A stretch of DNA of 64,000 nucleotides, taken from positions 248,001-312,000 of the forward strand of contig NZ_JANFNH010000001.1 of assembly GCF_024436055.1 (NCBI RefSeq), read 5' to 3'. The notes beneath the pieces were generated by a model. That model made no database searches and was not told the DNA's origin. It saw nothing but the letters and a program-made list of their open reading frames with translations. The DNA is from Streptantibioticus rubrisoli (GTDB lineage Bacteria > Actinomycetota > Actinomycetes > Streptomycetales > Streptomycetaceae). The translations under genes and the position numbers were made by a program. Of the stretch, positions 8,816 to 14,601 are shown in pieces; the first letter of the stretch is position 1; the number at the start of each line of letters is the position of its first letter.

Positions 8816-9134
8816 CCGCAACGCGTGCCCGCCGGGAAACGGCGCGGGAAAGGCCGCGCCAGAAGGCTCAAATTACGCTCAAGTCATTCCGCCGGTGACT
8901 GGCGGGTAATAGCGGCTGCGGGCCTTCCCCCGGCGCGACCAGGACCTTGACCATTTCTTTGCCAGGGGCCTGAGGGGCAGCTGAGAGCAGTCTGCCTGAG
9001 GAAACGTACCGAGCGGATGGAAATTATCTCTGGAAGATAACTATTCATCGTCGGCTCTTTGCGGATGTATGAACGCTCCCTACTCTGAGGCAACTCTTCT
9101 CAGCAAGCTCTGCCATTAAATGGAGAGGCCCCTC
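8816..9134 (+). other. Long intergenic leader upstream of APC permease
   Basis: 319 bp without a gene and less GC-rich than its surroundings. It holds an inverted repeat at 9024-9040 (separate entry) and a small hairpin CTGAG/CTCAG near 9085-9103. No known riboswitch core is recognised. Confidence 0.4.
9024..9040. promoter_or_regulatory. Inverted repeat TTATCT-N5-AGATAA, candidate operator
   Basis: Perfect 6-base AT-rich arms around CTGGA, about 95 bases upstream of the permease start, in otherwise GC-rich DNA. A dimeric repressor such as a GntR- or TetR-type protein could bind; none is adjacent. Confidence 0.45.
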
Positions 9135-10775
9135 ATGGTCAGTGTGGACAAGTTCGCCCCGCAGACGGCTCGAGACCCCAGCAAGCTCCGTCGCGACGTA
9201 GGCCTGATCGGACTGCTCTGGGCGTCTGTCGGTTCCATCATCGGTTCCGGATGGTTGTACGGCGCCCAGAAGGCCGTAGTCGTGGCCGGCCCGGCCGCCG
9301 TCATCTCGTGGACCATCGGCGCGATAGCGATCGTGCTGCTTGCCCTGGTCCATGCGGAGCTCGGCGGTCTCTTCCCGGTGGCGGGCGGTACCGCTCGCTA
9401 CCCGCACTACGCCTTCGGCGGACTGGCCGGTATGTCCTTCGGCTGGTTCTCGTGGCTGCAGGCCGCCACCGTCGCCCCGATCGAGGTCGAGGCGATGATC
9501 GGCTACGCGGGCCACTGGTCCTGGGCGCAGGGCTTCCTGAACAAGGACCAGACCCTGACGGTGAGCGGCTTCATCGTCGCGGTGGTCCTGATGGCCGTCT
9601 TCGTCGCGGTCAACTTCCTCGGTGTCCGCCTGCTGGCGCACACCAACAGCGCCGCCACCTGGTGGAAGGTGGCTGTTCCGCTGCTCACGATCTTCGTGCT
9701 GGCGGCCACCCACTTCCACGGCGGCAACTTCACCTCGCACGGTTTCGCACCGTTCGGCGCCAAGGGCGTCCTCGGCGCGATCAGCACCAGCGGCATCATC
9801 TTCGCGCTGCTCGGCTTCGAGCAGGCGATCCAGATCTCCGGTGAGAGCAAGAACCCCAAGCGGGACATCCCGCGCGCCACGATCGGCTCGGTCTTCATCG
9901 GTGCGGGCATCTACCTGGCGCTGCAGATCGTCTACATCGGCGCGCTGCCCGGCAGCTCGTTCGCCCACGGCTGGGCCAAGCTCGACTACGCGGGGATCAG
10001 CGGCCCGTTCGCCGGTCTGGCGACCGTCATCGGACTCGGCTGGCTGGCCTGGGTGCTCTACCTGGACGCGGTCATCTCCCCTGGCGGTACCGGCCTCATC
10101 TACGCCACCTCCACGTCGCGCATCTCCTACGGCCTGAGCAAGAACGGCTACGCTCCCCAGCTGTTCGAGCGCACCAACGCCCGTAGCGTTCCGTGGTTCG
10201 GCCTGATCATGGCCTTCGTGACCGGCGTGATCTGCTTCCTGCCGTTCCCGAGCTGGCAGCAGCTGGTCAGCTTCATCAGCTCGGCCAGTGTCCTGATGTA
10301 CGCGGGTGCCCCGCTCGCCTTCGGCGCGCTGCGGCTTCGGCTGCCGGACCGCGAGCGGCCGTACCGGCTGCCCGTCGGTGGCATCATCTCGCCGGTGTCC
10401 TTCGTGATCGCCACCCTGATCATCTACTGGTCCGGCTGGGACACGCTGTGGCGGCTGGGTGTGGCCATCATCCTCGGTTACGTCCTGCTCGGTTCGTACG
10501 CGCTGTACGCCAACCGCAAGGGTCTGCCGAACGCCCCGATCCTGAACTGGAAGTCGGCGCAGTGGCTGCCGGTCTACCTGATCGGCGTCGGTGTGATCTC
10601 CTGGCAGGGCGGCTTCGGCAACGGAACCGGTGCCATCCCGCTGTGGTGGGACATCGCGCTCATCAGCGTGTTCTCGCTGGGCATCTACTACTGGGCGCGT
10701 GCCACCGCACTGCCCACCGACGAGATCCAGGAGAACATCGAATCGGTGACCGTGGTGGACGAGGGCGGCCACTGA
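9135..10775 (+). CDS. APC-superfamily amino acid permease
   Basis: 546 residues with about 12 predicted membrane helices, beginning LRRDVGLIGLLWASVGSIIGSGWLYG, the unwound GSG segment of APC helix 1 where the substrate amino group binds. A second signature is GFEQAIQISGESKNPKRDIPRA in helix 6-7. The ATG at 9135 is preferred over the one at 9120 because GGAGAG lies 7 bases before it. The protein is closely related to the permease encoded at 11982, so the two are paralogues around a carbamoyltransferase. The substrate cannot be assigned from sequence; cationic or ureide-type amino acids are possible given the neighbours. Confidence 0.9.
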   Translation: MVSVDKFAPQTARDPSKLRRDVGLIGLLWASVGSIIGSGWLYGAQKAVVVAGPAAVISWTIGAIAIVLLALVHAELGGLFPVAGGTARYPHYAFGGLAGMSFGWFSWLQAATVAPIEVEAMIGYAGHWSWAQGFLNKDQTLTVSGFIVAVVLMAVFVAVNFLGVRLLAHTNSAATWWKVAVPLLTIFVLAATHFHGGNFTSHGFAPFGAKGVLGAISTSGIIFALLGFEQAIQISGESKNPKRDIPRATIGSVFIGAGIYLALQIVYIGALPGSSFAHGWAKLDYAGISGPFAGLATVIGLGWLAWVLYLDAVISPGGTGLIYATSTSRISYGLSKNGYAPQLFERTNARSVPWFGLIMAFVTGVICFLPFPSWQQLVSFISSASVLMYAGAPLAFGALRLRLPDRERPYRLPVGGIISPVSFVIATLIIYWSGWDTLWRLGVAIILGYVLLGSYALYANRKGLPNAPILNWKSAQWLPVYLIGVGVISWQGGFGNGTGAIPLWWDIALISVFSLGIYYWARATALPTDEIQENIESVTVVDEGGH

Positions 10776-10871: not shown

Positions 10872-11783
10872 TCACCGGCCCGTGGTCACCCACTCCAGGA
10901 CGGCCATCGCGCTAGGCAGCTTCATCGCCGCCTGCGTCCAGGCCAGCGACCGCGGGCCGTCCAGCACGGCCGCGGAGACCTCGTCGCCGCGTCGGGCGGG
11001 CAGGTCGTGCATGAACCACGCGTCCGGCCAGCGGTTGACGAACGCCTGATTCACCTGGAACGCGCGCTCGGGCGTACCGGCCCCGCACCAGCGTGTCGTG
11101 TAGACGACGTCCACCTCGCGCGGCAGGCGGCCCGGGTCGGCCACCTGGTCCAGGCGCGCACCCGTGGCGGCCGCCCGGCGGGCGGCGCGCGCCAGCTCCC
11201 CGTCGGGCAGGCGGCGTTCCCGCGGGCAGACGAAGCTGACCCGGGCGCCCGGTACCGCGCTCAGCCCATGGGCCAGGGCGACGGCGGTGCTGTTGCCCTC
11301 GCCCACGTAGAGCAGCTGCAGCCCGGACAGGTCACCGAAGCGCAGCAGCAGGGTGGCCAGGTCGCAGATGCCCTGGGTGGGGTGCTCCTCGGCGGCCATG
11401 GCGTTGACGGTGGGCAGCTGCCCGTACCGGGACAGCACCCGCAGCTCGGTCAGCGGCCCGGTTGTGTGGGCCACCAGGGCGTCCAGCATGCAGCCGAGCG
11501 CCCGCCCGGTGTCCGGCAGCGGTTCCCCGTCGGACGGCTCGTACGACACCGGTGTGCCGCCCAGCCGCAGCGTGCCGACCGTGAAGGCGGTACGGGTGCG
11601 GGTGGAGCCACCGGTGAACAGCGTGCCGACGACCTGGTCGCACAGCGGCCGGTCGTGCGCCTCCCGGTCGTCGAACAGCTCCGTTGACCTGCGGGCCAGC
11701 CGAAGCACGGCGCCCGGCTCCAGGTCGGCCAGTGAGAACAGCCCCCGCTCCGGTCCCGGCGGTCTCGACGCGGTCTCCACCAT
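10872..11783 (-). CDS. Aspartate/ornithine carbamoyltransferase-family protein with non-canonical substrate loops
   Basis: 303 residues covering both domains of the family, which moves a carbamoyl group from carbamoyl phosphate to an amine. The carbamoyl-phosphate motifs are intact: STRTRT at 60-65 and HPTQ at 134-137. The amine-side motifs are not: the ornithine loop SMG reads GAG (residues 234-236, in YTTRWCGAGTPE), and HCLP reads HDLP (259-262). The protein is therefore unlikely to be a normal ornithine carbamoyltransferase. ATG 11783 has GAGGGGC close upstream. The frame remains open far upstream but without family similarity. It is divergent from one APC permease and convergent with another, suggesting it acts on an imported amino compound, or in reverse on a carbamoyl compound. 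Confidence 0.85.
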   Translation of the reverse strand: MVETASRPPGPERGLFSLADLEPGAVLRLARRSTELFDDREAHDRPLCDQVVGTLFTGGSTRTRTAFTVGTLRLGGTPVSYEPSDGEPLPDTGRALGCMLDALVAHTTGPLTELRVLSRYGQLPTVNAMAAEEHPTQGICDLATLLLRFGDLSGLQLLYVGEGNSTAVALAHGLSAVPGARVSFVCPRERRLPDGELARAARRAAATGARLDQVADPGRLPREVDVVYTTRWCGAGTPERAFQVNQAFVNRWPDAWFMHDLPARRGDEVSAAVLDGPRSLAWTQAAMKLPSAMAVLEWVTTGR

Positions 11784-11981
11784 GCCCCTCCGTCGTCCGG
11801 TAGGAAGCGGCCCCAGCGGGGGGAAGGTAGCAACCGGAGCCCCCCGGCACCATGCGGCGGGGAAGCGAATCGGCCGTGCGTCACCCCCTCGGCGGGCCGG
11901 GCGAGCCCGATCGCTGCTGCGGGCCGGTGAAGCACGGTCACGGTGCGTGGTTCTCCCCGCGCGCGGTGGTACCCATCGCTG

Positions 11982-13625
11982 GTGTCGCAACCGCCGCTGG
12001 AGCACACGCCGCCACCTCGCGCGGTGAACGCCGCGCGCACCCTGGTCCCTGGTGCCGCGCAGGACGTCAGGGTCGAGGAGCGCAAGCTCCGCCGCCGTCT
12101 GGGCTGCTGGGGGCTGGGCGCGATCGGCTTCAGCGACATCGTCGGCTCGGGTTGGCTGTTCGGCGCGATGTACGCCGCGCGGATCGCCGGTCCGCTGTCC
12201 CTGCTGTGCTGGGTGGCGGCCGGTGTGCTGGCCGGGCTGGTCGCGCTGGTGATGGTCGAGCTGGCGGCCAGCCGTCCGGAGGCCGGGGGTACGGTGCGCT
12301 GGCCGCTGTACGCCAACGGGCCACTGGTGGCGGGCGTGATCAGCTGGGCGGTGCTGCTGTCGGTGGGAGCGCACGCCGCCGAGGTGACGGCGATCCTGCG
12401 GTACGTCTCGCACTGGCTGCCCTGGCTCTACCACGGCGCCCGGCTCAGCTGGGCCGGGATGGCGCTGGCGGCGGCCGTCATCGTCTCGCTCGGTGCGCTC
12501 AACTGGTTCGGTGTGCGGCTGTTCGCCCGGGTCAATCTGCTGGTCTCGGTGCTCAAGCTGGCCGTGCCCGCGCTCACCGTCGTCCTGCTGCTGGCCTCCG
12601 GTTTCCATCCGCACCGGCTCACCGAGCACGGCGGCTTCGCCCCCTACGGCTGGTCGGCCGGGCTGACCGCGCTGTCGATGGGCGGCGTCGTCTACTCGGT
12701 GAACGGCTTCCAGGCGCCCGTGGAGTTCTCCGGCGAGGCCCGCGACCCCCGGCGGGACGTACCGCGCGCGGTGCTGACCGCGATCGGGCTCGCGGTACTG
12801 CTCTACGTCGGACTGCAGTTGGCCTATTTGTGCGCGATGCCGGAACGGGCGCTGGCCCACGGCTGGCGCGGGGTCAGCTTCGACTCGCCTTTCGGCCAGC
12901 TGGCGCTGCTGCTCAACCTGCACTGGCTCGCCTTCCTGCTCTACACCGACGCCGTGGTCTCACCCGCTGGCGGGGCGTTCGTCGGTGTGGCCGCGCACGC
13001 CCGGCGGACCTACGCGCTGGCGAAGAACCGGATGCTGCCGCACTGGTTCCTGCGGGTGCACGCCGGTTCCGGCATCCCACGCCGGGGGCTGGCGCTGAAC
13101 CTGGCGGTGACATTGCTGTTCCTGCTGCCGTTCGGCGGCTGGCAGGACGTGGTCAGTACCGTCGGCAACCTGTTCCTGCTGGGGTACGCCACCTCCGCGG
13201 TGGCCGCGTACACCCTGCGGGTGGCGGGCCGCGGGCGGGTGCCGGGGGTGCGGTGGATCGCGCCGGTCAGCTTCGTGGTGGCCACGCTGTTCGTGTACTG
13301 GTCCAGCTGGTACCGGCTGCGGGTCACGCTGCCGCTGGCGCTGCTGGGGGTACCGCTGTTCTGGTGGGTACGGCGGCGGGAGCCGACCGCGGTACTGCTG
13401 AGGGAACTGCGCAAGGGCGGTTGGCTGCCCGCCTGGCTGCTGGGCCTGCTGGCCTGCTCCGCGCTCGGCGGCTTCGGCGGCACCGGCGCGCTGCCCGAGC
13501 CCTACGACTCCGTGACGGTCGCCGCCTTCAGCCTCGGCGTGTTCCGCTGGGCGGTGCGCTCGGGCCGGAGGCACCTCGCCGAGGGCGCGAGCGCACCGGA
13601 CGGTATGGCGGAAATCCCGCGCTGA
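11982..13625 (+). CDS. APC-superfamily amino acid permease (paralogue of 9135)
   Basis: About 547 residues and 12 helices. It shares the helix 1 segment GFSDIVGSGWLFGAMYAARIAGP and the later GFQAPVEFSGEARDPRRDVPRA with the permease at 9135. The start is uncertain: GTG 11982 is used, GTG 11943 is in frame, and neither has a convincing ribosome binding site. It is divergent from the carbamoyltransferase gene (198 bp apart) and followed by the deacetylase-fold gene 52 bp downstream, which suggests the four genes 9135-14601 share a nitrogen-compound task. The substrate is not predictable. Confidence 0.88.
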   Translation: MSQPPLEHTPPPRAVNAARTLVPGAAQDVRVEERKLRRRLGCWGLGAIGFSDIVGSGWLFGAMYAARIAGPLSLLCWVAAGVLAGLVALVMVELAASRPEAGGTVRWPLYANGPLVAGVISWAVLLSVGAHAAEVTAILRYVSHWLPWLYHGARLSWAGMALAAAVIVSLGALNWFGVRLFARVNLLVSVLKLAVPALTVVLLLASGFHPHRLTEHGGFAPYGWSAGLTALSMGGVVYSVNGFQAPVEFSGEARDPRRDVPRAVLTAIGLAVLLYVGLQLAYLCAMPERALAHGWRGVSFDSPFGQLALLLNLHWLAFLLYTDAVVSPAGGAFVGVAAHARRTYALAKNRMLPHWFLRVHAGSGIPRRGLALNLAVTLLFLLPFGGWQDVVSTVGNLFLLGYATSAVAAYTLRVAGRGRVPGVRWIAPVSFVVATLFVYWSSWYRLRVTLPLALLGVPLFWWVRRREPTAVLLRELRKGGWLPAWLLGLLACSALGGFGGTGALPEPYDSVTVAAFSLGVFRWAVRSGRRHLAEGASAPDGMAEIPR

Positions 13626-13677
13626 CAGCCGGTGACCGCTGATTAGCGTAGGAACTTCCATCAGGAGGGGAGTTCCC

Positions 13678-14601
13678 ATGACGCAGCCCGAGCCACGGAG
13701 CGCGGACGGACCGGATGAACCCTGGCAGTGGAGCGAGACCGTCTGGCGGGCGCACGTCGAGCGGGTACGGGCCGGGCGGAGCCTGGCACCGCAGCGCTGG
13801 CCCGGCGGCGCGCGGGCGGCGGTGGCGCTGTCCTTCGACGCCGACCACGAGTCGATCCCGCTGCGCGACCGGCAGACCGGCCCCGGCAGGCTCTCCCAGG
13901 GCGAGTACGGGGCCAGGGTCGCGGTCCCGAAGATCATGAAGCTGCTGGAGCGGCGGTCCATCCCGGCCACGTTCTTCGTGCCCGCGGTCATGGCCCTGCT
14001 CCGCCCCGACGAGGCGCGCGGCTACGTCGAGGCGGGCCACGAGGTCGGCATCCACGGCTGGATCCACGAACGCAACACCGCGCTGCGCCCCGACACCGAA
14101 CGGGAACTGGCGGGCCGCAGCGCCGACACCCTGGAGCGCGTCTGCGGCAAGCGGCCGGTGGGCATCCGCACCCCCTCCTGGGAGTTCGGTGAGCACACCC
14201 TGGCGATCAGCCGGGAGCTGGGGCTGCGCTACGACTCCTCACTGATGGCGGACGACGAGCCGTACGAGATCGTCGCGGACGGCCAGCCCACCGGCATGGT
14301 GGAGATCCCGGTGGAGTGGATACGCGACGACGCCCCGTACTTCCCCCGGCACCCCGGGCCCGCAGCGCACCCGGGTGCGGTGCCCCGGGATGTCGGACGG
14401 CTGTGGCGGGACGAGTTCGACGGGGCGTACGCGCAGGGCGGGCTGTTCCAACTCACCCTGCATCCGCATGTGATCGGGCACCGCTCCCGGCTCGTCGTCC
14501 TTGAGGAACTGCTGGACTACATCCACGACCGGGGGGACGTGTGGTACGCCACCCACGCGGACATCGCCGACTACGTGGCGCGCGACGCGGGCCTGACCTG
14601 A
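13678..14601 (+). CDS. Polysaccharide deacetylase/cyclic imidase-fold hydrolase (PuuE/HpPgdA-like clade)
   Basis: 307 residues with a NodB-type (beta/alpha)7 fold. The metal site can be read in ALSFDADHES (Asp-Asp near residue 45) and HEVGIHGWIHE (H-x-x-x-H near residues 121-128). The protein is cytoplasmic, with no signal peptide. Its length and the motif arrangement match the PuuE/HpPgdA clade, where characterised members act on allantoin or cyclic imides rather than wall polymers. AGGAGGGG lies 7 bases before the ATG. The position downstream of an amino-acid permease and near a carbamoyltransferase favours an imide, hydantoin or ureide substrate; this is inference. Confidence 0.8.
   Translation: MTQPEPRSADGPDEPWQWSETVWRAHVERVRAGRSLAPQRWPGGARAAVALSFDADHESIPLRDRQTGPGRLSQGEYGARVAVPKIMKLLERRSIPATFFVPAVMALLRPDEARGYVEAGHEVGIHGWIHERNTALRPDTERELAGRSADTLERVCGKRPVGIRTPSWEFGEHTLAISRELGLRYDSSLMADDEPYEIVADGQPTGMVEIPVEWIRDDAPYFPRHPGPAAHPGAVPRDVGRLWRDEFDGAYAQGGLFQLTLHPHVIGHRSRLVVLEELLDYIHDRGDVWYATHADIADYVARDAGLT

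Follow-up and report, generated by a model that had tools for sequence, protein, structure and literature searches.

A putative stranded descendant of a diaminopropionate transcarbamylase in Streptantibioticus rubrisoli

Transcarbamylases specific for L-2,3-diaminopropionate (DAP), the DPTCases of zwittermicin and viomycin biosynthesis, are recognized according to passages of PMC4581275 by a (T/S)RWQTTG loop combined with HDLP, and the diaminobutyrate enzyme (DBTCase) by TRWQSMG. The same passages describe a carbamoyl-phosphate-binding Arg in beta-4 that is conserved in all family members, and Table 1 of that paper gives Q76 as the 80's-loop Gln contributed by the adjacent subunit. Here we analyze a carbamoyltransferase gene of Streptantibioticus rubrisoli that lies in a 64,000-nucleotide stretch of contig NZ_JANFNH010000001.1 (positions 248,001 to 312,000; this whole stretch is called the window below). 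Its product is a real protein of the ornithine carbamoyltransferase (OTC) fold, but not an ornithine enzyme. It shares with the zwittermicin and viomycin DPTCases the fold, HDLP, TRW before the 240's loop, the family Lys in place of the OTC Arg, STRTR and HPxQ, a likeness read from the published motifs and not from the ZmaT or VioL sequences. Unlike them, it no longer has the beta-4 Arg, the 80's-loop Gln or the QTTG loop; SbnB is absent from its genome, and SbnA is matched there only below the cut-off. We lean towards the explanation that the gene is a stranded DPTCase descendant, whose partners are gone and whose active site has eroded, and which is retained under purifying selection without working as a DAP transcarbamylase.

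To collect relatives, 100 near genomes and 394 from across the class were searched, and two groups stood apart, namely sequences of up to about 40% identity, those inspected being OTCs, and a separate group at 46-85%. A scan for the patterns GEGN[NS][TS]AxAL and [ML]HDLPA[HR]RG, with one genome per species, gave at least 595 stretches, of which at least 510 encode a relative, and the best 80 loci (L060-L139) were fetched; relatives found in this way are biased to conservation at the two pattern sites, a bias that does not extend to the columns in which the window copy departs from them. A maximum-likelihood tree of 74 rows, comprising among others the window copy, 55 further DPT-clade sequences (with L060, L061 and L016) and 16 rows labelled OTC, splits the 56 DPT-clade rows from the OTC rows with support of 99/96. 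The window copy groups with that of the sister genome RPT161 (L061; 100/99) and then with the Streptantibioticus ferralitis copy (L060; 100/100), and these three genus copies form a 13-row clade with ten Streptomyces copies (98/98). Placement is less certain for the long-branched rows L001, L002, L004 and L034, the last of which lacks the usual OTC motifs. L004 (G000:C75:11811-12269) is a further transcarbamylase-like protein of the window genome, with HPTQ but no HxLP and a very long branch.

An ordinary OTC with a few odd residues would be the simplest label, and the best sequence and fold matches among solved structures are indeed OTCs. The AlphaFold model of the window protein superimposes on Mycobacterium tuberculosis ArgF with a TM-score of 0.90, the two share about 33% identity, STRTR and HPxQ, and both Pfam domains are found above their cut-offs (OTCace_N 84.1 bits, OTCace 83 bits). 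The SxRT, HPxQ and HxLP motifs, however, belong to the whole transcarbamylase family, and the features of OTC proper are missing; unlike ArgF, the window protein has neither the Asp and SMG of DxxxSMG nor HCLP, and it sits in the other clade. Against the OTC equivalog TIGR00658 (NCBIfam) it scores 158.7 bits, with a cut-off of 280.85. The tree, the motifs and the equivalog score together rule this candidate out, and we regard it as extremely improbable. A preliminary description made from the letters of the window had likewise taken the protein for something other than an OTC, and its position apart from the OTC clade agrees with this.

In most members of the clade TRWQTTG is combined with HDLP, and the HDLP motif is thus to be expected in it. 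In a passage of PMC6022934 the two loops, TRWQTTG and TRWQSMG, are assigned to DPTCase and DBTCase in the opposite way to PMC4581275. We favour the latter assignment because SbnA or SbnB stands beside clade copies in 42 of the 80 loci, nearly all of these copies having QTTG. At the corresponding place the window protein reads YTTRWCGAG, keeping TRW and losing QTTG. The preliminary description had noted GAG for SMG and HDLP for HCLP and read both as rewritten amine-binding loops. Both replacements are there, and the acceptor loop is indeed rewritten and shortened, whereas HDLP is the ordinary motif of this family. Judged by sequence, the gene very probably originated as a DAP transcarbamylase. 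The present copy falls short on two DPTCase sequence features, on the DAP-supply context and on the "universal" Arg, and we therefore class it as a diverged descendant rather than a functioning DPTCase. In annotations, members of this clade often go under the name of ornithine carbamoyltransferase, as seen in the annotated plasmid matches, which masks both the DAP-transcarbamylase family and copies that are probably inactive.

The extent of the erosion was determined on an alignment of 88 sequences, in which 74 columns are conserved to at least 95% among 85 sequences from outside the genus (78 of the best 80 loci, L060 and L061 being excluded, five plasmid loci, L016 and L017). The window copy breaks 11 of the 74 columns, the RPT161 copy seven and the S. 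ferralitis copy one, while the 85 relatives break 0.84 on average and five at most. In L060 numbering the 11 breaches are G82E, the deletion of L86, Q87 and T90, R111H, Y195R, G196R, T239G, K244E, and the deletion of W249 and F253. R111H corresponds to residue 106 of the window protein, a His; the Arg is present in both L061 and L060 and in no fewer than 95% of the 85 relatives. Q87, which our own alignment matches to the Gln of Table 1 in PMC4581275, is deleted; besides this Gln and the Arg, four of the 74 conserved columns fall in the lost 240's loop. The loss of the 240's loop is common to the window and RPT161 copies, and those of the Arg and the 80's loop belong to the window lineage. The claim that the carbamoyl-phosphate motifs are intact thus stands for STRTRT and HPTQ, both present as described, but not for the site as a whole. 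The predicted fold is kept (pLDDT 92, pTM 0.92), with the lowest internal 10-residue blocks at the 240's-loop remnant (pLDDT 66) and the 80's loop (pLDDT 78). From its sequence, the protein is probably no longer a transcarbamylase. Coordinates are collected in Table 1.

Table 1. Genes and motifs at the carbamoyltransferase locus, in window positions
Feature	Position	Strand	Remarks
Carbamoyltransferase gene, 303 aa, ATG start	10872..11783	-	Both transcarbamylase domains; diverged member of the DPTCase clade
STRTRT carbamoyl-phosphate motif, intact	11589..11606	-	
HPTQ carbamoyl-phosphate motif, intact	11373..11384	-	
80's-loop deletion of 5 residues, conserved Gln gone	11526..11531	-	Family GPxDLQLxTGE, here EPSD-GE, with the break near 11529/11528
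His codon replacing the beta-4 carbamoyl-phosphate-binding Arg	11466..11468	-	Family LVARTAG, here LVAHTTG
What is left of the 240's acceptor loop, shortened by 9 residues	11064..11087	-	CGAGTPER vs. family QTTGTxKPDPxWRxxF
HDLP motif	10998..11009	-	Usual form in DPTCase/DBTCase
APC permease A	9120..10775	+	Convergent with the carbamoyltransferase; 95% identical in two sister genomes
APC permease B	11943..13625	+	Divergent from the carbamoyltransferase; start possibly 12024; 86-93% identical in sister genomes
PuuE-like NodB-fold amidohydrolase	13678..14601	+	Breaks 8 columns conserved in its family; MDRYxxxRP loop gone

The gene is under purifying selection. By the NG86 method (YN00 gave very high dS for some carbamoyltransferase pairs), dN/dS between the window and RPT161 copies is 0.27 (bootstrap 0.19-0.40), with 0.16-0.38 for seven neighbouring genes. 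As the 240's loop is missing from both, constraint outlasted its loss, provided that this was a single shared event. These values argue against neutral decay, in which a functionless gene would have kept its frame open by chance. In 500 neutral simulations of the gene for each distance, only 2.4% stayed free of stops at 0.35 substitutions per site and 11% at 0.175. The loss of active-site loops and pathway partners, together with a PuuE gene that is a mere remnant in S. ferralitis, would fit such decay, which we nevertheless consider improbable.

The same selection bears on another alternative, namely a transcarbamylase that is still active, with a short acceptor loop suited to a new amine, perhaps imported by the permeases, and with His standing in for Arg in a re-formed carbamoyl-phosphate site. 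STRTRT, HPTQ, HxLP and the family Lys (Lys288) are all intact, the fold is predicted with confidence, and selection continued after the loop was lost; for this last reason we retain such an enzyme as unlikely but worth weighing, on sequence grounds. It would have to do without an Arg said in PMC4581275, as far as its passages go, to be conserved in all members, lost here together with the 80's-loop Gln, and without the four further conserved columns of the 240's loop.

Partner genes were sought in the three genomes of the genus, G000 (the window genome), G001 and G002, by searches in which only a restricted number of initial candidates is scored for each genome. No SbnB match was obtained in the window genome, no SbnA above the cut-off (best 262 bits vs. 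349.95) and no AurF orthologue (best match 36.8 bits, 27% identity). DAP supply by SbnA/SbnB, which is a feature of the context and not a part of the enzyme, is therefore missing in the window genome. At the locus itself, all three genomes keep only the transcarbamylase and PuuE of the donor-type cluster described below, PuuE being a remnant in S. ferralitis.

Several observations speak against a stranded and eroded gene. Four motifs or residues remain intact, as listed above, and purifying selection on an open frame disfavours simple decay and allows an active enzyme with another acceptor. The losses were seen in a draft assembly, and the deletions are in frame. RPT161, which has lost the 240's loop, has two SbnA/SbnB pairs over the cut-off elsewhere in its genome, one of them on a contig shared with a second, 49%-identical carbamoyltransferase, and S. 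ferralitis has an intact copy, yet no SbnA or SbnB above the cut-off. The absence of the DAP genes thus does not track the loop losses from one species to the next, a pattern that somewhat lessens our confidence in stranding and slightly favours the active enzyme. Another source of DAP, or its import, could also stand in for SbnA/SbnB.

With these points weighed, we still prefer a stranded DPTCase descendant. Its ancestor would have transferred the carbamoyl group of carbamoyl phosphate to L-2,3-diaminopropionate, yielding beta-ureidoalanine, in a cluster free of nonribosomal peptide synthetases (NRPS) and equipped with SbnA (partly SbnB), an AurF-type N-oxygenase, a methyltransferase, an exporter and often a PuuE-like hydrolase. 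Loss of the pathway would have come first and left the genus with the transcarbamylase and PuuE. The acceptor loop may then have been lost in the window and RPT161 lineages, and the carbamoyl-phosphate Arg and the 80's loop afterwards in the window lineage. A kept fold under purifying selection would point to a retained protein with another role, or to constraint that was relaxed only recently. If it is a retained pseudo-enzyme, the copies of S. ferralitis (intact), RPT161 (no acceptor loop) and the window (no carbamoyl-phosphate contacts either) would form a graded series in which the loss of an active site can be followed.

The ancestral setting is suggested by the neighbourhoods of the relatives. 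Genes were called there by a codon-usage caller trained on high-GC genes, whose start sites are often late; in 10 of the 80 loci it gave no carbamoyltransferase, and the tblastn match was used instead. Flanks of these 80 loci contain SbnA in at least 39, SbnB in at least 30, either of the two in at least 42, NRPS in at least 36, and one or more of these genes in at least 60; AurF was called in at least 15, of which one has an NRPS. All these counts are lower bounds, since a contig end shortens the flank in 26 of the 80 loci and the caller was trained on high-GC genes. Among the plasmid loci, four annotated ones have an NRPS near the carbamoyltransferase, one of them with SbnA as well, and the fifth locus is unannotated. 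The plasmid locus L142 (NZ_CP134610.1 35378-66289) is an NRPS cluster in which the DPT-clade transcarbamylase is accompanied by annotated methylaspartate mutase and asparagine synthetase A genes.

Outside the genus, the nearest carbamoyltransferases share 63-65% identity with the window copy and belong to Streptomyces clusters. We mapped 11 such loci (L062-L069 and L161-L163), of which L163 is apparently from the same genome as L068, and L062, L067 and L068 run into contig ends. The most constant partners are a methyltransferase (11/11), an AurF-type N-oxygenase (10), SbnA (9), a PuuE-like protein (8) and c18, a protein with no Pfam or NCBIfam match (8); an MFS exporter and an EctD-type hydroxylase occur in seven loci each, an M20 hydrolase and a GNAT protein in six each, and SbnB in five. 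An NRPS was called in none of the 11, although an uncalled gene may still be present. Of this set, seen for instance in L068, L069 and L161-L163, the window keeps only the carbamoyltransferase and PuuE, with two APC permeases in place of the rest.

The cluster deserves attention in its own right. In L063-L069 and L161-L163 it is compact and NRPS-free, combining SbnA (partly SbnB), the AurF-type N-oxygenase, the DAP transcarbamylase, the methyltransferase, the EctD-type hydroxylase and the exporter, often with PuuE or M20. We found no account of it in the open-access literature searched; in passages of PMC11479980 AurF, SbnB and a carbamoyltransferase of S. scabies are mentioned as separate proteins, not as one such cluster, and passages of the rotihibin paper PMC8552735 make no mention of a carbamoyltransferase. 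DAP synthesis, carbamoylation and N-oxygenation side by side point to a small molecule of which that literature yielded no description, and this donor-type Streptomyces cluster is a better lead than the window gene.

A different pathway had been proposed in the preliminary description, which expected the neighbourhood to serve uptake and breakdown of a ureide, cyclic imide or carbamoyl amino acid. In its explicit form, the APC permeases would import the ureide or cyclic imide, the PuuE-like enzyme would open the ring, and the carbamoyltransferase would phosphorolyse the ureido acid to carbamoyl phosphate. There is a precedent in E. coli, where, according to passages of PMC12507026, the reductive uric acid route employs a cyclic-ureide hydrolase with the catabolic transcarbamylase YgeW, the M20 enzyme YgeY and the PALP enzyme YgeX, so that YgeW, like members of the present clade, stands beside a cyclic-ureide hydrolase and M20/PALP enzymes. 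Unlike that system, the window copy has a broken carbamoyl-phosphate site, and no carbamate kinase (TIGR00746) was found above the cut-off in the three genus genomes (best 40 bits vs. 358.25), which makes it unlikely that carbamoyl phosphate is made or used at the end. Relatives outside the genus, moreover, often have genes for DAP synthesis, N-oxygenation or NRPS, so that their neighbourhoods look biosynthetic, and none was seen in a ureide-degradation operon. Permease orthologues also occur in genomes without the carbamoyltransferase. Ureide catabolism giving carbamoyl phosphate is unlikely on this evidence, and the route in its full form quite improbable, even though the PuuE link on which it partly rests is conserved.

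This link is real and was correctly anticipated. We sampled 297 Streptomycetaceae genomes; a PuuE orthologue (E <= 1e-70) is present in 22, and a match to the S. ferralitis carbamoyltransferase (E <= 1e-55) in 55. In six the carbamoyltransferase is at least 70% identical to the S. ferralitis copy, and PuuE lies within 10 kb of it in five of these, at distances of 1.9, 1.9, 4.3, 5.5 and 8.7 kb. In the sixth genome, that of S. ferralitis itself, the carbamoyltransferase is intact and only a C-terminal PuuE remnant is left (L060 7713-7510, minus strand). No PuuE match was found in the three genomes among the 297 that have a carbamoyltransferase at 60-62%. The PuuE-like protein of the window stays below the threshold for PuuE allantoinase, scoring 86.9 bits against TIGR03212 (NCBIfam) with a cut-off of 424.6. 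The window and RPT161 copies each break eight columns conserved in 23 others, the MDRYxxxRP loop included; leave-one-out breaches among those others average 1.9, with a maximum of 11 and a next value of 7, both in L172, which has two copies, and the comparison of the window PuuE leaves out its first 48 residues owing to a late start call. The PuuE loop is thus changed in the same two species as the transcarbamylase. This raises the possibility, tentative and on balance doubtful, that a retained pseudo-transcarbamylase and the altered PuuE-like enzyme adopted a shared new function, whether in binding, in sensing or in other chemistry, once they had left a ureido-amino-acid pathway.

PuuE also occurs apart from the carbamoyltransferase. 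In 14 such loci (L164-L177) it is followed by an MFS symporter gene in 13, and an SDR protein (12), an ApbA-M20 fusion (11) and a double Lrp-type regulator (8) are found with it. In loci L164-L171 and L173-L177, from other Streptomycetaceae, PuuE is joined by an MFS metabolite/H+ symporter and usually by the SDR dehydrogenase and the ApbA-M20 fusion, often in an apparent operon, and the set looks like one for cyclic amide catabolism. Such catabolic-looking surroundings elsewhere in Streptomyces count in favour of the breakdown route considered above.

The permeases are another matter. They are paralogues, as had been supposed, with 38% identity over 518 alignment columns. Among 121 Streptomycetaceae genomes sampled, 46 have an orthologue of permease A (E <= 1e-180) and 23 have one of permease B (E <= 1e-120). 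Among the places compared in this sample, no listed orthologue of either lies near a carbamoyltransferase outside the genus. The permeases were rejected as part of a conserved module, given that their orthologues are common in genomes without the carbamoyltransferase and near the gene only within the genus. Conservation of the neighbours, which the preliminary description had made a test of its proposal, therefore holds beyond the genus for PuuE and not for the permeases. As the carbamoyltransferase is on the strand opposite to both permeases and the PuuE-like gene, these do not form one operon.

In both sister genomes the stretch from the carbamoyltransferase to permease A also contains an amidase and a phosphatase with a SpoIIE domain (GAF/PAS), which come directly downstream of the carbamoyltransferase (L060 11037-14792; L061 10966-14644). 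Both genes are missing at that spot in the window; a genome search for the amidase gave a nearest match of 43% identity at another place, and the absence of the phosphatase refers to the locus only. With S. ferralitis as outgroup, their absence is most simply explained by a deletion in the window lineage.

A parallel case of stranding is found in Streptomyces morookaense (L077 9923-10930), where the stretch between the genes in common with L063 lacks SbnA, AurF and the methyltransferase. Its carbamoyltransferase has HGLP and QLAG loops and five breaches (Q87H, M134L, T239L, K244R and D274G), the most among the 85 relatives, and dN/dS against the L063 copy is 0.31 (0.20-0.42).

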